Assembly: GCA_024398055.1 (NCBI GenBank)
Contig: CP073749.1
Coordinates: 4,402,594-4,466,593, forward strand
DNA: 64,000 nt
Reading direction: 5' to 3'
DNA from: a bacterium SCSIO 12741
GTDB lineage: Bacteria > Bacteroidota > Bacteroidia > Flavobacteriales_G > Salibacteraceae
The position numbers and the translations under genes are program-made. The notes beneath the pieces were generated by a model. That model did no database searches. It was given only the letters and a program-made list of their open reading frames with translations, and was not told the origin of the DNA. Shown in pieces: positions 2,174 to 58,207 of the stretch; the first letter of the stretch is position 1; each line of letters opens with the position of its first letter.

Positions 2174-2374
2174 AAGTTAGATTTGATTTTAAGATTCACC
2201 CAAAGTTCAGCATGGGCAAAGCAGAAAATATCGAAGGATTATTGAAGCCCAATAAATCGGTGTTGAAACCCGGTTTTCAATTATTTTAAGAATCGATGAA
2301 GAATCCACAAATTGATCTTGTTTTGCACTTATCTTTACTCTACTCGAAATAGCCTAAGTACATTGTGAGTTTCT

Positions 2375-5350
2375 TTGCAGGGTACTTTCAACATAGAACC
2401 TTTGCCCGATTTAGTCCAACGCGTATTACTCTTTGGTTTATCGTTCCTCCTTGCCATGAAGGTTAGCTCAGCTCAGGAATTGGTTTACTTCCATTATACC
2501 ACCGATAATGGTTTACCGGCCATGGCAGTGCATGACGTAGAAGCTGATTCGGTAGGAAATCTATGGTTTGCTACCGAAAAAGGGGTCTCCTGTTTCGATG
2601 GTGTGAAGTTTAAGAACTTCAGTACCGAAGATGGTATTCCGGATAACCTGGTGTTTGAAATACGCCGGTCTCCCAATGGCCGGATGTGGTTTATTCCTCT
2701 TTCATCACGTATTTTCTATTTTGAAAACGACGAGTTTCATTACTATAGCCCGGCAGATACCTTATGGTCTCCAGAGGCTCGTACGAGCTATTTTGTTGAT
2801 TTCTATACCGATGCACAAAACCGGGTTAAATACTACTCCCATGAGATAGGATTGGCCGAGTTTGATCCTTTTGGAAAAGTACGTATCTCGCTTCCTCCCG
2901 ACAGGTTAAACTCAATGATTATGGAGTTTGAGCAGGTATCTCAGGATAAATTCATTTACAAAAGATCAGGTCGCCAGTCCACCTCCAATTTATTGGTCAT
3001 TAAAACACCAACCCGAAAGGACTCCATTCCAATTCCCAAATTCAATCCAAGTTTTCGAGCCTATTATGAAATATTGGACGATGGTAGTGTTCTGTTTTCC
3101 CACGGTTCTCACCTGTTTCGGTTTACCTCTGATACGCTCTATCAATTGAGCGATTTGCAAGTGAGAATCAATGCCATTAAATCATTTGACAACCAAGTGT
3201 GGATAGGCACAGGCAACGGCTTAATCCAAGCCGAAATTCTCGACAACGATTCTTTAAGGCGGGGCCCAACCTTCTTTTTGGGCAATCGGATAACGTCCAT
3301 TCTTAAGGATTTTGAAAATGGTTTTTGGATAACCTCAGAAAACAACGGAGTGTACTATGTACCGGATTTAAATCAACGCATGTTTACCCAAAATTCGGGG
3401 TTGGCTGAATCGGAGCAAACCTCTGTATTGACGGCCCCAAATAAGCTGCTGTATTCCGGAAGTGCTCAGGGTAATCTACAACGTATCGATTTAAAAAGTG
3501 GGACAATTCAAACTATCCGGCGTCAGAGTGCATCCGACTTATCGGTAGATCACATTGCCTTGGGAAAGGACCATGTTTATTTCTCTACGCTAAGCGGTAG
3601 TTTGTTCTTTTTTCATCAAGAAGACCCGCTTTTCAACCTTCACAAAATCTCCAAAGCCCCTGACAGCAGCGATTTATTACTCAAATTCATCACCCGAGAT
3701 CCCCTTTCGGAGGGAATTATTGCAGGTGGTGTTTTTAGGATATTCAAAATTCAACAAGATAATATCAAGGTTTTGTCCTGGAAAAATGACATTCGGTTTA
3801 TCCACATTATCCCTTTGGAGCAAGACCAATATCTTTTTGGAACATTACGTGGCGTCTACCACCAAATGGAAATACAAGAAGGGCCTAACAACGAGATCCC
3901 TGCTCCCATCTATTCCGGAATAGTTGTAGACCTGGGAATCCTGGAAAATTACATACCGGTTATTGGAAGTCAAAATGAAGGCCTTCTCCTCTACCGAAAC
4001 AATCGTTTGGACACCATTGGCCTAAAAGAAGGCTTATCGAGTATGCACATCACCGACGTGCTCGTTCAGGATAGCACCATATGGGTGGCTTCTACCCAGG
4101 GCCTTGACCGGATAGACATTTCCAATTTGAATCCGCTGAAATATACCATTGAAAACTTCGATCGGTTTGATGGAATTCCTTCGAACCACATTCATCAGAT
4201 GGATACACTTGGTAGAGGATTGGTAATGGCCACAAGAGGGGGCTTATCGCTATTTGTTCCTGAAACGAAAAAACCGCCACCTCCTCGTTGCCGGGTGCGT
4301 TGCGTAAAACTGGGAAAAAGCCCTTCTTACTTGGAGCAACATGCCGAACTTTCTGAAACGAATAGAGACCTAAGCTTTGAATTCGATGGAATTAGTTTTC
4401 GAAGCAGCCAGCACCTTCAATTTAAATACAAGCTAAAGGGCTACGACCAGGACTATAAATACACCACTAACCGAGAAATTCAATACACCAATCTACCTTA
4501 TGGGTCTTATGAGTTTGAGCTCTATGTAGCCAATAAGCACGGGGTTTGGTCTACTCAGCCCTCCCCTTTCTATTTCTCGCTCACTCCCCCATTTTGGCTT
4601 ACTTGGTGGTTCTTTTCGTTGGAAATAGTCGGCCTGCTAATTCTTCTGTTTTTTCTTTTCTCCTGGCGCTTAAGGAAACTGACCCAAAAAGTACGCAAAC
4701 AAGAAGCCATTCGCCGTGAAAAAGCCGAATTGGAGCTAAAGGCACTTCGTTCTCAAATGAATCCCCACTTTACGTTCAACGCACTCAACTCGATTCAATC
4801 TTACATCTCATCCGATCACATCCGGGAAAGTAAAAGCTACCTGGCCAAATTTGCCCGACTTAATAGAACCGTTCTTGAAAGTTCAGATAAACTCAGTATA
4901 TCTCTTCAAGATGAATTGGACCTGGTGACTCGATTTATAGAATTGGAACAACTCCGATTTGAACGAAAACTCCAATTTGACCTACATCTCGATGAATCTA
5001 TAGATCCTGAATGGGTAAAAGTTCCTCCCTTGATTTTGCAACCATTCATCGAAAATTCAGTGGTTCATGGAATGAAAAACAAACCCAATGGTGGCGCGAT
5101 AAGTATTGATATTAAAAAGCAGGAAGACTTTTTGATCTGCATTATTCGCGACAATGGAAGCGGGATAAATGAGGCAGACACCAAGCTAATTCGAAAATCC
5201 ATGGGCTTGTCCATAACTCAAAAGAGACTGGATTTGCTCAACGGACAAGGAGGCTCAGAAAATCAAATTCGTATGACCAACCTGGAAAGAGCTACCAATG
5301 GGAAAATGAAGGGAACCCAGGTAGAATTGCGCATTAGGATAATTCCCTGA
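2375..5350 (+). CDS. Sensor histidine kinase with periplasmic two-component propeller (LytS/His_kinase family)
   Basis: A 991-residue protein: N-terminal signal peptide ending near 'VSSAQ', about 700 residues of propeller repeats (for example 'GNLWFATEKGVSCFDG'), a Y_Y_Y-like domain near residues 650-740, one membrane helix near 750, then a His_kinase (PF06580) domain with 'MNPHFTFNALNSIQ' (His about residue 798), an N box 'PPLILQPFIENSVVHG' and a G box 'DNGSGI'. It probably senses a periplasmic or carbohydrate signal and phosphorylates the LytTR regulator encoded 21 bp downstream. No ATG fits the start: 2375 is TTG and a second TTG lies at 2402 (gives a tighter signal peptide). The usual Ile after PHF is Thr. 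Paralogue of the kinase at 52552. Confidence 0.88.
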   Translation: MQGTFNIEPLPDLVQRVLLFGLSFLLAMKVSSAQELVYFHYTTDNGLPAMAVHDVEADSVGNLWFATEKGVSCFDGVKFKNFSTEDGIPDNLVFEIRRSPNGRMWFIPLSSRIFYFENDEFHYYSPADTLWSPEARTSYFVDFYTDAQNRVKYYSHEIGLAEFDPFGKVRISLPPDRLNSMIMEFEQVSQDKFIYKRSGRQSTSNLLVIKTPTRKDSIPIPKFNPSFRAYYEILDDGSVLFSHGSHLFRFTSDTLYQLSDLQVRINAIKSFDNQVWIGTGNGLIQAEILDNDSLRRGPTFFLGNRITSILKDFENGFWITSENNGVYYVPDLNQRMFTQNSGLAESEQTSVLTAPNKLLYSGSAQGNLQRIDLKSGTIQTIRRQSASDLSVDHIALGKDHVYFSTLSGSLFFFHQEDPLFNLHKISKAPDSSDLLLKFITRDPLSEGIIAGGVFRIFKIQQDNIKVLSWKNDIRFIHIIPLEQDQYLFGTLRGVYHQMEIQEGPNNEIPAPIYSGIVVDLGILENYIPVIGSQNEGLLLYRNNRLDTIGLKEGLSSMHITDVLVQDSTIWVASTQGLDRIDISNLNPLKYTIENFDRFDGIPSNHIHQMDTLGRGLVMATRGGLSLFVPETKKPPPPRCRVRCVKLGKSPSYLEQHAELSETNRDLSFEFDGISFRSSQHLQFKYKLKGYDQDYKYTTNREIQYTNLPYGSYEFELYVANKHGVWSTQPSPFYFSLTPPFWLTWWFFSLEIVGLLILLFFLFSWRLRKLTQKVRKQEAIRREKAELELKALRSQMNPHFTFNALNSIQSYISSDHIRESKSYLAKFARLNRTVLESSDKLSISLQDELDLVTRFIELEQLRFERKLQFDLHLDESIDPEWVKVPPLILQPFIENSVVHGMKNKPNGGAISIDIKKQEDFLICIIRDNGSGINEADTKLIRKSMGLSITQKRLDLLNGQGGSENQIRMTNLERATNGKMKGTQVELRIRIIP

Positions 5351-5371
5351 ATAAGTTGCAGAAGGAGAGAT

Positions 5372-6115
5372 ATGAAGATTAAGACGGTAATTATTGAAGA
5401 CGAACCCAGATCACTCAAAGAACTTAGAAGTCAGCTGGACGGTTTTAGAAATAGAATTGAAGTTCTTGGACATGCTGACAATGTAGAAGATGGAGTCCGG
5501 TTGATCACCGAGCTTCAACCTCAACTCGTGTTTCTCGACGTAGAAATTAACCAGGGAACGGGTTTCGACCTGTTGCAGCAGCTGGACACGATCGATTTTA
5601 AAGTAGTATTTACCACGGCACACAGCAAGTATGCCCTAAGGGCTATTAAGTTTGGTGCGCTCGACTACCTGCTCAAGCCAATAGATCCTGAAGAATTGGA
5701 AGCCTTGGTTGGGTCTCTTCCAGAAGAGGATTCCATTAACTCTGAACTCAACCAACTCAAGGTGATGCTAAACCACCTAACCGAGCAACAAACGCCCAAA
5801 AAGCTGGCTATTAAGGAGGTGGGAAAAGTAGAGTTTATCAACCTCGACAAAATCATTTTACTCAAGGCCAAAACCAACTACACGCAGATTCAGGTAGCTG
5901 GCAGAAAACCGATTCTCTCTTCCAAAACCCTTCGGTACTACGAACAACTGCTAACGGACAAGCGATTTAGAAGGGTGCACCGCTCGTTCATTATCAACTA
6001 CCGCTACGTTCGGGAATTTGTCCATCAAGATCACCTCATTGTGATGGAAAATGGTGAGGAAGTGTACATCAGCCCCAACCAACGCAAGGATTTCCTGGAT
6101 GAAATAAGTCTTTAA
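5372..6115 (+). CDS. LytTR-family response regulator
   Basis: A 247-residue protein with an N-terminal receiver domain (acidic pair 'IIEDEP' near residue 8-12, phosphoacceptor Asp56 in 'LVFLDVEI', conserved Lys in 'YLLKPI') and a C-terminal LytTR DNA-binding domain from about residue 145 ('KIILLKAKTNYTQI', 'RVHRSFIINYRYV'). LytTR domains bind pairs of 9-bp direct repeats in DNA. The ATG is preceded by a purine-rich 'gaaggagag', one of the better ribosome binding sites here. It follows the kinase at 2375 by 21 bp, so the two form a two-component operon. Targets cannot be read from this locus because the next gene is convergent. Confidence 0.92.
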   Translation: MKIKTVIIEDEPRSLKELRSQLDGFRNRIEVLGHADNVEDGVRLITELQPQLVFLDVEINQGTGFDLLQQLDTIDFKVVFTTAHSKYALRAIKFGALDYLLKPIDPEELEALVGSLPEEDSINSELNQLKVMLNHLTEQQTPKKLAIKEVGKVEFINLDKIILLKAKTNYTQIQVAGRKPILSSKTLRYYEQLLTDKRFRRVHRSFIINYRYVREFVHQDHLIVMENGEEVYISPNQRKDFLDEISL

Positions 6116-13078: not shown

Positions 13079-13120
13079 GGCGGGATAACGAGAAATCCTT
13101 CGGTTTGGTACCTAGGTGGA

Positions 13121-13210
13121 ATCTTCAAACTTCAATCTTCAAACTTCAATCTTCAAACTTCAATCTTCGAGATTCGAGATTCGAGATTCGAGATTCGAGA
13201 TTCGAGATTC
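13121..13210. repeat. Intergenic tandem repeats: 14-bp units then six 7-bp GAGATTC units
   Basis: About three copies of a 14-bp unit (atcttcaaacttca) from 13121 to about 13162 run directly into six perfect copies of GAGATTC at 13169-13210. The flank after it (13211-13252) holds reverse-complement-like tracts (gaagattgaa), so the region can fold back on itself. A shorter relative lies in front of miaE (33291-33350). Confidence 0.88.
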
Positions 13211-13273
13211 AACATGAAGATTGAAAATTGAACCTGAAAATTGAAAATTCAATAATGCTACTATATTCGCAAA

Positions 13274-51611: not shown

Positions 51612-52482
51612 AAAAGAAAAGGAAAACTCCACTGGTCCAGCGCATTATTCAACGCATTTTCCCCGTGTTGGAAGCGGTTAGTCCTTCCTTGGCGGGTAAA
51701 TGGGCTACCAAACTATTTTTCACGCCTTTTCGATTTAAGCCTCCTCAACCCGAGGAACAACGAGCGGCCGATGCCAGGTGGACCCGGCTTCAGGTAAATG
51801 AGGATGAAATACAGATCTACCAGTGGGGGCCAAAGATGCTCCTGTTGCCTTACTGATGCACGGCTGGTCTGGAAGAGGACTGCAGTTTAGAGAAATGATT
51901 GCTCCTCTGCTTGAAGAAGGATATCAGGTGGTCACTTTTGATGCTCCCGGTCATGGACGATCGACGGGAAAAGAAAGTAACATCATTCTATTTAAGGATG
52001 CCCTGCTCAAAATTCAACAAGAACTGGGCTTCATTCACTTGCTTATCGCCCATTCATTGGGAGGAGCTGCCTCTTGGTATGCCCGTGTAGAAGGACTGGA
52101 AGTAGGTAAAATGGTTTCCATTAGTACCCCATCTATTCCTGCCCAAATCATTCAGGAATACCTGGTACGCATAAATGCTTCGGCCCGCACCGGTAAGGCC
52201 TTGGAAGACCACGTAGAGAATTTGGTGGATCGCAGTTTTGAATCCTTTGGAGCTTATGTAAATGCTCCCCTTGCTCCTGCCATTCCTACCCTACTTTTTC
52301 ACGACTTGAAAGACAAAGAGGTGAGTATACGCCATTTGGAAAAACTACAAGAGGTACTACCTCACGCCAAAAGTTCACTTTCAGATGGTTTGGGCCACAA
52401 CCGAATTCTTAAAGATGCCGGAATCATCCGTCAAATCGTATCCTTTGCCAGGCTGGAAAAGCGCCAAACCATTTCTGCCTAA
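51608..52482 (+). pseudogene. Alpha/beta hydrolase with one-base frameshift in a G run
   Basis: Two overlapping frames, 51608-51856 (N-terminal 82 residues) and 51823-52482 (219 residues), are parts of one alpha/beta hydrolase. The first part ends with 'IQIYQWG', the second begins 'AKDAPVALLMHGWSGRG' and contains the nucleophile Ser in 'LIAHSLGGAAS' and the catalytic His in 'GLGHNRIL'. Adding one G to the GGGGG run near 51826-51832 makes one continuous protein of about 290 residues. Either a genuine one-base loss or a sequencing or assembly error. The start overlaps the TetR stop by 4 bp, so regulator and enzyme share an operon. Substrate unknown. Confidence 0.8.
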
Positions 52483-52551
52483 ATCATCTTTTGATCTTCT
52501 TTATTTTGAGTGAGATGCTCAAAACTGAACCTAAAAAATTAGGTTTGTTAG

Positions 52552-55458
52552 GTGAGATTGGTATTTGATGGTGTGAAGTCCGTTTGTCTGTACGTATTCC
52601 TTTTCCTTCTTCCTATTCAAAGCTTTGGACAGAATCCAGCTCATTGGAAACTGACCACAGAACATGGTCTCCCGGCCATGACGGTGTATGACGTGATGCA
52701 GGATCATTCAGGAATGATCTGGTTTGGGACCGAGCATGGCCTCTGCAAATACGATGGCATCCAATTCCAATCCATTACCTCCAATGGACCTTTTAACCGA
52801 GATGTTTCCTATATCAAACAAGACTCCTTGGGTCGAATTTGGTGCCGAAACTTTTCAGGAGCCGTTTTTCAGGTTCAAGACGATCAGCTCAAGTGGATCA
52901 AACCCGTCTACCAAGGTGAATACGTGGAGATAAAGGACTTTACCTTTAAATCTGACTCCATTTTTTACTTGAACAGCACCAAACTCTATGGGGCAAGTTT
53001 GGGGAATGAAACACAACTGAAGTTAGTTTACGATCTTGTCGGACGAGGCCGATTCTATTATTTTCCCATACGTGATTCCAGCGATCAGATTGTCGTCTCT
53101 GGATTGGAGAAAAAAAAGTCGGCCAACAGCAATAAATCCCTGATTTGGGCGCCAAATTTCAATGTAGGGAGCTCCATCCAAAAAGATCAATTTTTCCTAT
53201 GGCATCAAGTCCCTCTTAAAAAGTTTGGTCTGTTTAACACCGATTTAGAATACCAAGAACTCAATCTGGCCAATTATGACCAACCCATAGCCGCCACCCA
53301 TGTATCCTATGGTCCGGATGGACTTCTCTACATCACCAGTAAAAATGGGCTATTTCAATGCGATATTGTTGGAGATTCCCTGGTGGTTCGCAACCATTAT
53401 TTCCAGGATGTATTCTTATCTAATCTTCTGTTTGACCGGGAAAATAACCTCTGGTTAACCACTCTGAGAAACGGAGTATTCGTGGTTCCTGATATTGGCC
53501 TTACTCATTGGAATGCATTTTCGCCAGTAGGTATGCAACGGGTTACTTTACTAAAACCTTTGGAGACAGGAATTCTCATCGGAGGAAATAATGGAAAAAT
53601 AGTCCACTTAAATCAGAACTCAGTACAATCGTACCTGGCTGAGGGGGTGGAAGATGTGCGAGATTTGGAACTCGACCAGAACAAAAACTTGCTTTATGCC
53701 ATTGAAAATGGAGTAAGTATTTTTCAATTTGGCGATTCCACTCATATCCCACACGAAGTTCCCCATCTGATTTTAAAAGACATTTCACTCTACGGAGAAA
53801 AAACACTTTTTGCTTCAGCCATGGGCGCCTACCTGTTTGCCGATGTAAAGAATCGAACTAAAGATAATTGGAGGAGGCTACGAGTGCGCCGATCCCTAAA
53901 GGCCGAACTGCTGGATGAAAGGAGAGCCTTGGTGGCCTACGACGATAAGCTATCCTGGTATTCGAATCTGGCCAGCGATTCTGCGCAAGACATTCAGTGG
54001 CAAGGTAAACCTATCATTGTCAAGCAGTTTGAAAGAATTTCAAACGACGATCGCTTCCTTGTTCTCACTTTTACCAATCAGTTTCTAAAATTGGAGCTGA
54101 AAGAGAATCAATGGAACTTAACCACTCTTATCGATTCCAACCAGTTCGATATCCATACCTTTTGTATAGGCGATTCCAACACTTGCTTCCTGGCAGGAGA
54201 TGATGGAGTATACCGATTTGATGAATCCTTGAAATCGCTGAGTCCTCTAGCTGACTGGGGCGGAATGTCGCTCGGTGAAATATACGCGCTGGCCAAAATC
54301 GAGAACACCTTATGGATTGGTTCTAACTTAGGCCTTTTCCAAAAAAACCTTTCCAATTCCTACCCGCCCTCAGTACATTCCTTGATTCAGATTAAGAGGA
54401 TTACTGTCAACAACCAGCCTCATCCTATCGATTCGAGCGACTTGCATTTAGCTTATGATCAAAACAACCTAAGCTTTGCCTTTGCCGCTCTTTCCTTTAA
54501 AGCCAATCGAAAACAGAAACTTGAATACCGATTATGGGGTGCCCATGCCGGTTGGAAATCCATATCCCCGAATCAGAATGTAGAATTCTCGTCACTGTCT
54601 CCGGGAGACTATCAACTCCAGGTAAGGGTGGTTAACTCTTCTCTATTAGATTCACCAGTATGGAAGAAGAATCTGGTGATTCAAGTCCCTTTTTGGAGTA
54701 CCTGGTGGTTTGTTTCTGGGCTCATCCTTTTATCTATGGCAATGACCGCAATTTTGGTTTCCTATATATTGAATAGGAGAAAACAAAGCGTCTTAAAAGA
54801 ACTGGAGCAAGAAAAACTCAAGCAATCCGTCACCGATTTGAAGCTGGAGGCCATCAAATCGCAGATGAATCCGCACTTTATATTCAATGCCCTGAATTCC
54901 ATCCAAGACTATATTCTTCAAAATGAGAAAGAGTTGGCCAATCTATACCTGGGCAAATTTGCCGACCTCGTAAGAAACACCTTGGAAATGAGCCAGGAAA
55001 AGGAAATAACCCTGGCCCGGGAATTGGAAAACCTATCTGTATATATTCAACTCGAAGCGCTTCGGTTCGAACCCGCTTTTGATTACGAATTAGTGGTAGA
55101 CAAGGACATTGATCAGAATGCCACTTTTCTACCTCCCCTATTTCTCCAACCCTATGTGGAAAATGCAATTAAGCACGGATTGTTTCACAAAAAAGGCTCC
55201 AAGCAACTTCAGATTATTGTGGAGAAAATCCAAAATGGGATTGATATTCACATAGTTGATAACGGAATTGGCCATGCTCGGTCGGAGGAAATCAAAAAAA
55301 GGGATGGGAGAAGTCATAAACCCTTTGCCACCATGGCCAATAGCAAACGAGTAGATTTGGTTAACAAGAATACTTCCTCCTCCTACCATATTTTAACTCA
55401 AATCGGCCCGAACAATGAAGGTACCGAGGTAATAATCACCATTAAAAAGAACCACTAA
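52552..55458 (+). CDS. Sensor histidine kinase with periplasmic propeller, paralogue of the 2375 kinase
   Basis: 968 residues with the same order as the first kinase: signal peptide ('FLLPIQSFGQ'), propeller repeats ('GMIWFGTEHGLCKYDG'), Y_Y_Y-like domain ('LSPGDYQLQVRVVN'), one membrane helix near residue 725, and a His_kinase domain with 'MNPHFIFNALNSIQDYI' (His about residue 775), N box 'PPLFLQPYVENAIKHG' and G box 'VDNGIG'. Both kinases begin their propeller with a 'GLPAMxVxDV' motif, indicating duplication. The start is GTG at 52552. The kinase gene precedes its regulator by 7 bp. Confidence 0.88.
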   Translation: MRLVFDGVKSVCLYVFLFLLPIQSFGQNPAHWKLTTEHGLPAMTVYDVMQDHSGMIWFGTEHGLCKYDGIQFQSITSNGPFNRDVSYIKQDSLGRIWCRNFSGAVFQVQDDQLKWIKPVYQGEYVEIKDFTFKSDSIFYLNSTKLYGASLGNETQLKLVYDLVGRGRFYYFPIRDSSDQIVVSGLEKKKSANSNKSLIWAPNFNVGSSIQKDQFFLWHQVPLKKFGLFNTDLEYQELNLANYDQPIAATHVSYGPDGLLYITSKNGLFQCDIVGDSLVVRNHYFQDVFLSNLLFDRENNLWLTTLRNGVFVVPDIGLTHWNAFSPVGMQRVTLLKPLETGILIGGNNGKIVHLNQNSVQSYLAEGVEDVRDLELDQNKNLLYAIENGVSIFQFGDSTHIPHEVPHLILKDISLYGEKTLFASAMGAYLFADVKNRTKDNWRRLRVRRSLKAELLDERRALVAYDDKLSWYSNLASDSAQDIQWQGKPIIVKQFERISNDDRFLVLTFTNQFLKLELKENQWNLTTLIDSNQFDIHTFCIGDSNTCFLAGDDGVYRFDESLKSLSPLADWGGMSLGEIYALAKIENTLWIGSNLGLFQKNLSNSYPPSVHSLIQIKRITVNNQPHPIDSSDLHLAYDQNNLSFAFAALSFKANRKQKLEYRLWGAHAGWKSISPNQNVEFSSLSPGDYQLQVRVVNSSLLDSPVWKKNLVIQVPFWSTWWFVSGLILLSMAMTAILVSYILNRRKQSVLKELEQEKLKQSVTDLKLEAIKSQMNPHFIFNALNSIQDYILQNEKELANLYLGKFADLVRNTLEMSQEKEITLARELENLSVYIQLEALRFEPAFDYELVVDKDIDQNATFLPPLFLQPYVENAIKHGLFHKKGSKQLQIIVEKIQNGIDIHIVDNGIGHARSEEIKKRDGRSHKPFATMANSKRVDLVNKNTSSSYHILTQIGPNNEGTEVIITIKKNH

Positions 55459-55465
55459 GACTATC

Positions 55466-56227
55466 ATGACTGCACTTAAAGCACTGATTATCGATGATGA
55501 ACCCAAAGCAAGAAGAACTTTAGCCACTTTATTGAGTGATTATTGCGACCCTGTAACCATCGTTGGGCAGGCAGAAAGCGTGCAGGAAGCACTGCAGTTG
55601 CTGAAACAAGAAAAGCCGGATGTCGTTTTCCTGGACATTGATATGCCCGTAGAATCTGGGTTTAAGCTTTTCGATTACGTAAATCCGGTTGAATTCCATA
55701 CTGTCTTTGTAACTGCCTATGACCAGTATGCGATTAAAGCCTTTAAGCAAGCGGCCTTGGGTTACCTTCTAAAACCGGTTCAAATTCAAGAATTAAAAGC
55801 TGTGGTTGAACGCTGCAGAACGGCCGTTTCCCAACAAATGCGTAGCGAACAGTTGTCTATTTTGCAGGAGTATATAAAACCCAGCCCTACTCCATCAGAC
55901 AAACGAATTGCCCTACCCGTGGCCAATGGGTTTCTGTTTAAGAAAGAAAAAGAGCTGGTGTGTTTAAAAGCGGATGGATCCTACACGGAGATTTTCACTG
56001 TTACCGGAGAACGATTGGTGATTTCCAAAAAACTCGGTGAGTTGGAAGATTTGCTTTCCCAAAACACCTTTTACCGCTGCCATCGTTCCTATATCATTAA
56101 CCTAAACGAAATCCATCAATTTGTACGAGAAAGTGGTGGCTACCTCCTACTAACCGGAGATTGTACGGCAACGGTAAGCAAGGACAAACGCGAAGAACTT
56201 CTCCAGAAGATAGCCGGTCAAGCTTAA
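55466..56227 (+). CDS. LytTR-family response regulator, paralogue of the 5372 regulator
   Basis: A 253-residue protein: receiver domain with acidic 'LIIDDEPKARR', phosphoacceptor Asp57 in 'VVFLDIDMP' and Lys in 'YLLKPVQ', and a LytTR DNA-binding domain from about residue 150 ('LVCLKADGSYTEIF', 'YRCHRSYIINLNEIHQF'). It is in an operon with the kinase at 52552. A 9-bp direct repeat with 21-bp periodicity lies 18 bp after its stop and in front of the T9SS gene at 56330, a possible target of this regulator. Confidence 0.92.
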   Translation: MTALKALIIDDEPKARRTLATLLSDYCDPVTIVGQAESVQEALQLLKQEKPDVVFLDIDMPVESGFKLFDYVNPVEFHTVFVTAYDQYAIKAFKQAALGYLLKPVQIQELKAVVERCRTAVSQQMRSEQLSILQEYIKPSPTPSDKRIALPVANGFLFKKEKELVCLKADGSYTEIFTVTGERLVISKKLGELEDLLSQNTFYRCHRSYIINLNEIHQFVRESGGYLLLTGDCTATVSKDKREELLQKIAGQA

Positions 56228-56245: not shown

Positions 56246-56275
56246 TCATGGGTTCAAACGGGACTTTCATGGGTT
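56246..56275 (+). promoter_or_regulatory. Direct repeat with 21-bp periodicity, candidate LytTR binding site
   Basis: TCATGGGTT at 56246-56254 is repeated exactly at 56267-56275, with 12 bp between copies (21 bp start to start, two helical turns). LytTR-domain regulators bind pairs of 9-bp direct repeats with this spacing. A hairpin CTCTTT-AACC-AAAGAG follows at 56281-56296. The position, between a LytTR gene and the start of the next gene, supports a regulatory role; binding itself is inference. Confidence 0.55.
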
Positions 56276-56329
56276 AGCAGCTCTTTAACCAAAGAGTTGT
56301 TCGGATTCTTGTCGTCAAATTATTACGAC

Positions 56330-58207
56330 ATGAAAAATCAGATTTTTACTCTCTTAGCTTCGGGAATACTGCTTTCCGGTGGCTCTCTTAAAAGTCAGAC
56401 GGTTCTCTCTACGCATGCCATGTATGGCGATTGCCAATTGAACCGAGTTGGCCTGTGTGTAGACAAAGATGACAATGCATATCTCCTGGCTACATTCTCT
56501 CAAAAAAACAACAACCCATTAGTGAAGATTGCTAACAAGAACTCCTACTACAACAACAATTTTCACCAAGTTATTTGTGCCAAATACAACGCTCAAAACC
56601 AATACACGACGCATAAAGATTTTCCCAGCCAAACCTTTGGGCAAATGTTAGGCATTGCCTACAATAAAGCACAAAACAAGATCATTGCCGTTGGAGGTCA
56701 TAAGTTAAACGGAGGCTATCAAAAAGGTTATGCAATGTCTTTGAATACAGACTTTAGCGGACAATCCACTGAGCAATTTCAAAAAGCAAAGGATTTTGTT
56801 TTAAACTCCATCGCCGTAAGTTCAAGCGGTGCCAATGTAGTGAGCGGAGTTGACTACAGCAACACCATTAGAACTTCGAGCCTAGTTACCATGGCCGGGA
56901 GTAAGAACATAATGAGAGATTTTTCGGCTTCCGATCACTTGTACATCACTAATGTAGCTATAGACGATCAAAGCAGAGTATGGGGTGTTGGTCAATATGG
57001 TGGAGTATTCGACTCCTTACCCAATGCCGACAAAACCAATGGCCTTATTCTTCGACGAAGCCTAAACCTATCTGAAGACACGGCAATTTCGATAGGAGGT
57101 GGAACAGTAAGAGCCGCAACCATTGCCATTTCAGGTGACAACGTATTAATTGGTGGCCATTTTAAGGATACCCTTAAATATGGAGGTAAAACCTTAGTCA
57201 ACGCAACTACAGGATGGGGAGCTTTCGTTCTTTGTATCAACCAGAAGGGCCAACTCAAGTGGTTAACAGAGTTTGAAGGAGCTGAATCCTTTATTCAGGG
57301 AATAGCCATAAACGATTGTGGAAATGTAGCCGTAACCGGTGCCTATGTGGATCAGCTTAAGGTTGGAGCCGCTAATATTACTTCCAATTCAACCTCCAGT
57401 AAGCGAACATCCTTTGTACTTCTGTTAAACTCCTCTGGTGAGGTTATCTGGTTAAAGGGCTCCAAAGGAAATTCTAACGACGCCTTTAGCCGAGGTTCAC
57501 GAGTGGCCTTTAAGGCCAATGGAAACTTGCTGGTTGCTGGAAACTTTGGTGGAGGAATAATTTTCGATTCAGATACCTTGGATGAATCCAACAATAGCCC
57601 AGCAAGCAATCATGCTAACGTTTTTCTGGTGGAATACTCAATCTCCTCGGCCCCATACGCCATGGAATTGTCTAATGACACCATCGATGAAAACAACACC
57701 CAACAGGTGACGGTAGGAAATCTTACCGTTGAGGATTGCAAACACACATCCCAATTCACCTACAGTCTCGTAGCTGGTGCCGGTGACACTGACAACGCCC
57801 AGTTTACCCTAAACGGAGCTAACCTTATGGCCTTACCAGGACTTGACTTTGAAACCAAACCTCAACTGAGCGTTCGCATTCGGGTAACCAATCCAGATCA
57901 GAAATTCTTTGAGAAAGCCTTTACCATCAACCTTAACGATTTGACCGAAACTGTGGGAATATCCGAATTGGCGGACAAACGATCCATTCATGTTTACCCT
58001 AATCCGGTAAAGGATCAACTTCATGTTGAATCGGATGGAGTTACTCGAGTACAGCTGATATCTATTGAGGGCAGGGTTATCAACTCTCCGACTGTACAGC
58101 AAAACGGTGGGTATCTATTGAATACCTCATCTTTAGAACCAGGAACCTACGTTTTGCGCGTGGATTTTACGGATGGTGTAGAAATCAGAAAAATCATGAA
58201 GCAGTGA
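56330..58207 (+). CDS. Secreted protein with T9SS type A sorting domain
   Basis: About 625 residues. A signal peptide ('IFTLLASGILLSGGSLKSQ') is followed by a beta-rich region that resembles SBBP/propeller repeats ('AISGDNVLIGGHFKDTLKYG', 'VAVTGAYVDQLKVG'), a cadherin-like segment ('LSNDTIDENNTQQVTVGN') and a C-terminal T9SS type A domain ('VYPNPVKDQLHVES', 'LEPGTYVLRVDFTDG'). It is exported and probably surface-attached. The ATG at 56330 is preferred to a TTG at 56297, which adds no signal-like residues. A strong terminator follows. Confidence 0.85.
   Translation: MKNQIFTLLASGILLSGGSLKSQTVLSTHAMYGDCQLNRVGLCVDKDDNAYLLATFSQKNNNPLVKIANKNSYYNNNFHQVICAKYNAQNQYTTHKDFPSQTFGQMLGIAYNKAQNKIIAVGGHKLNGGYQKGYAMSLNTDFSGQSTEQFQKAKDFVLNSIAVSSSGANVVSGVDYSNTIRTSSLVTMAGSKNIMRDFSASDHLYITNVAIDDQSRVWGVGQYGGVFDSLPNADKTNGLILRRSLNLSEDTAISIGGGTVRAATIAISGDNVLIGGHFKDTLKYGGKTLVNATTGWGAFVLCINQKGQLKWLTEFEGAESFIQGIAINDCGNVAVTGAYVDQLKVGAANITSNSTSSKRTSFVLLLNSSGEVIWLKGSKGNSNDAFSRGSRVAFKANGNLLVAGNFGGGIIFDSDTLDESNNSPASNHANVFLVEYSISSAPYAMELSNDTIDENNTQQVTVGNLTVEDCKHTSQFTYSLVAGAGDTDNAQFTLNGANLMALPGLDFETKPQLSVRIRVTNPDQKFFEKAFTINLNDLTETVGISELADKRSIHVYPNPVKDQLHVESDGVTRVQLISIEGRVINSPTVQQNGGYLLNTSSLEPGTYVLRVDFTDGVEIRKIMKQ

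Follow-up and report, generated by a model that had tools for sequence, protein, structure and literature searches.

The locus considered here raises a simple question: what is an exact 9-bp direct repeat doing in the short spacer between a LytTR response regulator gene and a gene for a T9SS-exported protein? Little is known of the control of individual T9SS-exported proteins in Bacteroidota, and for the many LytTR regulators of these bacteria few targets have been assigned. Where a regulator gene is followed by a repeat whose length, spacing and place are fixed, the target becomes readable from the sequence. Throughout, the window is the whole 64-kb stretch of DNA that was analysed.

The repeat pair and its chance level

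The half-site TCATGGGTT occurs twice with a start-to-start distance of 21 bp and a gap of 12 bp, at 56246-56254 and 56267-56275, within a 102-bp spacer that runs from the stop of the LytTR gene at 56227, through the repeat pair, to the ATG at 56330. The pair begins 18 bp past the stop codon. The preliminary description had reported an exact pair of this length, period and gap at 56246-56275, lying between a LytTR regulator and a T9SS gene. The coordinates were confirmed, as was the placement, with the domains now assigned by Pfam; the LytTR domain of the adjacent regulator matches PF04397 with E 3.5e-15, and the cargo carries PF18962, its signal peptide being read by eye only. Two exact copies in a 9-12-9 arrangement fit LytTR operators, which two papers give as direct repeats of about 9 bp, 10-13 bp apart (PMC11347149, PMC6193735). 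The features are listed in Table 1.

Table 1. Positions of genes and sequence elements in the window
Feature	Position	Strand	Basis or remark
Candidate operator of the paralogous system, TTGAAGCCC-N12-TTGAAACCC (8/9, 21 bp)	2242..2271	.	divergent promoter region
Paralogous sensor kinase gene	2375..5350	+	ORF; domains by resemblance only
Paralogous LytTR response regulator gene	5372..6115	+	ORF; aligned with LytTR domains
Sensor histidine kinase, LytS type, with Reg_prop propeller and Y_Y_Y	52552..55458	+	Pfam His_kinase, Reg_prop, Y_Y_Y
Response regulator with LytTR DNA-binding domain	55466..56227	+	Pfam Response_reg and LytTR; clade with G017 and G005
Putative operator half-site 1, TCATGGGTT	56246..56254	+	sequence and three-genome conservation
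Putative operator half-site 2, TCATGGGTT, 21 bp on	56267..56275	+	sequence and three-genome conservation
-7-like element GATTCTTG (consensus TAnnTTTG)	56304..56311	+	three-spacer alignment
Predicted target, 625-aa secreted protein with type IX sorting tail	56330..58207	+	Por_Secre_tail; G017 ortholog

By itself the repeat is modest evidence. The window has 17 positions at which an exact 9-base pair with 21-bp spacing begins; 16 of these are inside a 7-bp tandem array near 13166, and the TCATGGGTT pair is the only one outside it. Other spacings between 18 and 30 bp gave 0-2 exact pairs, with the exception of 28, which is also a multiple of 7. When the 102-bp spacer was shuffled 200,000 times, an exact 9-base pair of whatever sequence turned up at 21 bp in 58 cases. 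The full TCATGGGTT pair has a single match in the window at up to three mismatches (mean in shuffles, 0.09). Since such 9-base pairs are not rare in 64 kb, this one is notable only through its location. The array itself belongs to a stretch of overlapping short tandem arrays with units of 7, 14 and 20 bp (13120-13252).

The preliminary description had also called for a genome-wide search for TCATGGGTT pairs at 21 bp. When this was run, the exact pair was found once in the 5.1-Mb genome. Allowing three mismatches gave 8 places, against 8 for a reversed control pattern. In the search for further TCATGGG operators, one-mismatch sites in this genome numbered 6, against 4 for the reversed control at up to one mismatch; two of the 6 overlap start codons, and they were taken as chance matches.

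Conservation within the order

A search of 60 genomes placed the regulator of G017 (49% identity) closest to that of the window, leaving aside the window's own genome. G017 has the same order of kinase, regulator and cargo, and its spacer contains TTCATGGG twice, 21 bp apart. The kinases of the two loci are 35% identical over 961 aligned positions, and the cargo proteins are orthologs (33% over 611 positions). In G005 a kinase, a LytTR regulator and the repeat pair are followed by the gene for a protein, again with PF18962 as in G017, which resembles the window cargo mainly in its C-terminal part (27% over 119 positions). A quick tree groups the regulators of the three genomes in a single clade (SH-aLRT 97). 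With one cargo orthologous and the other alike mainly at its C-terminus, the putative operator and its regulator persist across cargo exchange.

The motif TCATGGG-N14-TCATGGG is present at four places in 42 genomes of the order. Three of them (window, G017 and G005) are 12-18 bp past a LytTR regulator gene and ahead of a Por_Secre_tail gene; the fourth, in G003, is within a coding ORF with no LytTR gene nearby. All three members of the regulator clade found in the 42 genomes keep the pair beside the orthologous regulator. In a repeat-anchored alignment of the three spacers the half-site bases are identical at 14 of 14 positions, compared with 15 of 79 elsewhere. The exact operator sequence is carried by these three genomes only, all of one family. 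The preliminary description had made its proposal depend on conservation at orthologous loci, and both G017, with the same three genes, and G005, with kinase, LytTR regulator and T9SS cargo, have the pair at this location with its 21-bp spacing intact.

It is this conservation, rather than the repeat statistics, that settles the case. A functionless repeat arising by chance in a short spacer would agree with the exact 9-base pairs that are expected now and then near this spacing in 64 kb, and with a genome that has no second exact pair. The conservation already contradicts it, as the repeat has kept its bases, place and spacing unchanged in two further genera where the rest of the spacer has diverged, and three of the four occurrences in 42 genomes share this one context. 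We consider a chance origin highly improbable.

No wider TCATGGG regulon emerged. The motif was present at 28 places in 26 of 395 class-sample genomes, and in the 30 loci checked from the order and class scans a LytTR gene was within approximately 1.5 kb only at the window, G005 and G017.

The predicted promoter

The pair is directly upstream of a predicted promoter. In all three genomes [T/C]TTG starts exactly at +41 from the second half-site, as part of an A..[T/C]TTG element that is among the few agreements outside the half-sites. This element fits the Bacteroidota -7 box TAnnTTTG, as given in PMC9723704; the window copy is imperfect (CTTG). In the wider set described below, 35 regions bear a repeat; TTTG starts at +62 to +66 from it in 13 instances and is rare around that interval. 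Our sigma70 and terminator scans gave matches at background level. An inverted repeat, TTCTTGTCGT/ACGACATGAA, at 56306-56334 spans the start codon and overlaps the predicted -7 element; judged by eye, a similar one is present in G017 with a paired change and absent in G005.

The position of the pair 18 bp past the regulator stop, with another inverted repeat (CAGCTCTTT/AAAGAGTTG) following at 56278-56299, might instead suggest an RNA or transcript-end element of the regulator operon, such as a terminator or an mRNA stability signal. However, the terminator scan had no terminator-like match there, CAGCTCTTT/AAAGAGTTG is not retained in the three-way alignment, and the related repeat of Winogradskyella (see below) is found ahead of genes that have no regulator gene in front of them. 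We give this explanation very little credence.

Repeats behind related LytTR regulators

The sample comprised 138 distinct related LytTR regulators from 145 sources, 13 duplicates having been dropped; they are the best hits to the window regulator and not a random draw. One region of less than 60 bp was dropped and 137 were counted. A repeat was scored when at least 8 of 9 bases agreed within the first 100 bp past the stop codon, and 9-mers of two letters or fewer were never counted. Such repeats are found at 21 bp in 25 of the 137 regions, whilst any other spacing from 12 to 60 gives 0-6. The peak is also seen in clusters at 50% identity (12 of 46, with at most 3 at other spacings) and with the Asp/Glu-type regulators excluded (16/104, other spacings 0-6). 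Two controls gave no peak at 21 bp, namely coding ends (2/122) and stretches 300-400 bp further on (1/118). Other long ORFs of these loci gave a smaller excess at their ends, 12/307 at 21 bp against a mean of 3.0 at other spacings; at least two of those 12 (L040 and L050) are themselves additional copies of the flavobacterial repeat, so this control is not clean. Upstream of kinases generally, 21-bp repeats were found in 8 of 85 cases (up to 4 at other spacings), a weaker signal than behind the regulator. Such a repeat is missing behind many of the related LytTR genes.

In Winogradskyella psychrotolerans (L223), each of five consecutive genes has the flavobacterial repeat 95-98 bp before its ATG. 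The first copy is directly behind the regulator, and four of the five genes do not follow a regulator. Four other flavobacterial genomes have two copies separated by about 3.75 kb, the first upstream of the kinase and the second behind the regulator. The row and the kinase-upstream copies together show that the flavobacterial repeat goes with promoters, not with the end of the regulator gene. The reading of the window pair as a regulator-linked promoter element is backed both by the peak at 21 bp downstream of many LytTR genes and by this five-gene row. Across the row (1546-8237 of L223) a TTTG is present at a near-constant distance from each repeat, and at least the first gene encodes a T9SS-tailed protein. 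Exact matches to the flavobacterial pattern number 1-3 per genome in the seven genomes searched, mostly at these loci; the exceptions are G425, with both exact matches elsewhere, and G422 and G424, with one each elsewhere. A run of 21-bp-spaced TTTAGAAGTT in G427:C1:912744-912940 is perhaps a coding repeat rather than a set of operators.

These loci bear on whether the same operator might serve a regulator that represses the cargo gene, or that loops to or autoregulates its own operon. LytTR repressors exist, CoxC being described as binding repeats that overlap the -35 (PMC11347149), and the second copy upstream of the kinase in four flavobacteria resembles an autoregulatory arrangement. The half-sites in the window, however, are upstream of the promoter and not over the -7 element; 52380-52700, upstream of the window kinase, has no repeat of at least 7/9 at 20-22 bp; and five copies before five Winogradskyella genes point to target control. 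Repression or autoregulation is unlikely on this evidence.

The proteins encoded downstream were scanned in 29 cases, and Por_Secre_tail was found in 11: all 3 of the TCATGGG clade and 8 of 16 flavobacterial ones (the 16 include L051 and L058, which are under the repeat cut-off of the 35 regions; L038 is cut by the locus end). All four Chitinophaga-type proteins are OMP_b-brl_3 barrels, and both of the TACCGTT type have TonB-receptor-related domains. "T9SS cargo" is therefore valid for the TCATGGG clade, whereas for the wider set the rule broadens to "envelope or exported protein".

Half-site types and the recognition residue

Half-site types differ by regulator clade: the TCATGGG type (TCATGGGTT in the window) belongs to the clade of the window, G017 and G005, TTTAGAAGT/TTTCAGAAATT to Flavobacteriaceae, AACTGCTCAT to Chitinophaga and its kin, and TACCGTTAACT to two Bacteroidales-like records. 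Asp occupies the position aligned with R233 of AgrA in the TCATGGG clade and in most of the rows from flavobacteria; the TACCGTT type has Arg there, and the Chitinophaga type has Ser. The position was located by alignment to 3bs1, extended two residues past its end by eye, with residues numbered as in AgrA. TTCA is found in 18 of 21 repeats of the Asp/Glu type and in 4 of 21 of the Arg/Ser type (Fisher p 3e-5, kinship ignored). Because kinship is uncorrected and the flavobacterial rows with Asp or Glu are near kin, this apparent association of residue and half-site is usable as a lead only. The ACC-type consensus in the tables of PMC6193735 does not fit the sense strand of the window site, and its reverse complement, AACCCATGA, shares ACC..T.A only. 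The poor match to ACC-type sites and the Asp at the R233 position both count against the operator reading.

Many kinase-LytTR pairs of Bacteroidota could be self-contained cassettes of regulator, 21-bp operator and exported or surface protein, in which operator and regulator co-evolve, cargo is swapped freely and rows of operator and cargo are possible, as in Winogradskyella; on this we are evenly balanced. For the co-evolution the lead would be Arg, Ser or Asp/Glu at the R233 position going with ACCG-, GCTCA- or TTCA-type half-sites, respectively. If true, it would mean a distinct LytTR recognition branch and, for part of the T9SS surface proteome, a readable code in which one regulator serves few targets.

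Other regulators of the same genome

The preliminary description saw no matching pair near the paralogous system at 2375-6115. That stands for the TCATGGGTT half-site and fails for a 21-bp pair as such, TTGAAGCCC and TTGAAACCC being present between the paralogous kinase gene and a divergent M43-type peptidase gene. The pair may be the operator of the paralogous system; it is a candidate only, because a simple calculation gives an 8/9 pair at one spacing a probability of approximately 2% within about 200 bp. The next gene downstream of the paralogous kinase and regulator is oppositely directed.

The genome contains 22 matches to the window regulator at E <= 1e-30. One locus (L137) has a second Asp/Glu-type LytTR regulator, with TTTAGCAGT/ATTCAGCAGT at 21 bp (8/9), so that two different putative operators coexist in this genome. 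The putative operator of L137 is of the flavobacterial type, at about 6040-6080, and its first half overlaps the regulator stop codon. Another locus of this genome (L167, 3994-5621) has two LytTR regulator genes in tandem. The half-site types may offer natural, possibly orthogonal, regulator-operator pairs within one genome.

Proposed mechanism

The reading that we favour, with good though not full confidence, treats the pair as a dedicated operator with the classic 9-12-9 geometry for the LytTR regulator encoded 18 bp upstream; two subunits would bind it to activate the T9SS gene at 56330. Taken by parts, the pair very probably serves as the site where the adjoining regulator contacts DNA, and the secreted-protein gene is probably turned on through it. 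That the regulator binds here, is phosphorylated, and activates instead of repressing is what we infer. The co-encoded kinase would sense a signal through its propeller and presumably phosphorylate the regulator. Two regulator subunits could then occupy the half-sites on the same side of the helix, two turns from each other. With [T/C]TTG placed at -8 to -5, these half-sites would fall at about -70 to -62 and -49 to -41, much as in the LytTR activators AgrA (PMC4227749) and HdrR (PMC6193735). The bound regulator would be just upstream of polymerase at a weak -7 promoter, and would activate the 56330 gene from there.

Comparison with known LytTR systems

The kind of element is already known. 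The literature searched, largely without subscription papers, contained no description of this architecture, and this clade, half-site and target are undescribed in it. BtsR and YpdB of E. coli are, as in the window, LytTR regulators with a LytS-type kinase and paired direct repeats; their half-sites and targets are different.

The sites of HdrR, BrsR and other LytTR regulatory systems are directly upstream of the promoter, with the repeat sequence poorly conserved and its length, spacing and place highly conserved (PMC6193735). They share with the window two 9-bp direct repeats, usually 12 bp apart. The HdrR/BrsR-type regulators, however, have inhibitory membrane-protein partners and the listed sites are those of their own operons, whereas the window has a kinase partner and a T9SS cargo gene; the listed half-sites are mostly ACCNNTTAN, as opposed to TCATGGGTT (PMC6193735).

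AgrA of S. aureus has direct repeats upstream of an activated promoter (PMC4227749), as the window would if activation is correctly inferred, and the window regulator belongs to the same LytTR fold family (profile match to 3bs1). R233 is needed for DNA binding by AgrA, the R233A mutant being defective (PMC4227749); the window clade has Asp there, and the half-site also differs. A further case is a putative site of Bacteroides thetaiotaomicron, TCCGGTATTCA-11-ACCGGAAATCA with TATCTTTG (PMC6193735, Table 3). It differs from the window in its 22-bp period, its membrane-protein partner and its half-site, but it too is from a member of the Bacteroidota and has direct repeats upstream of a -7 TAnnTTTG (PMC6193735).
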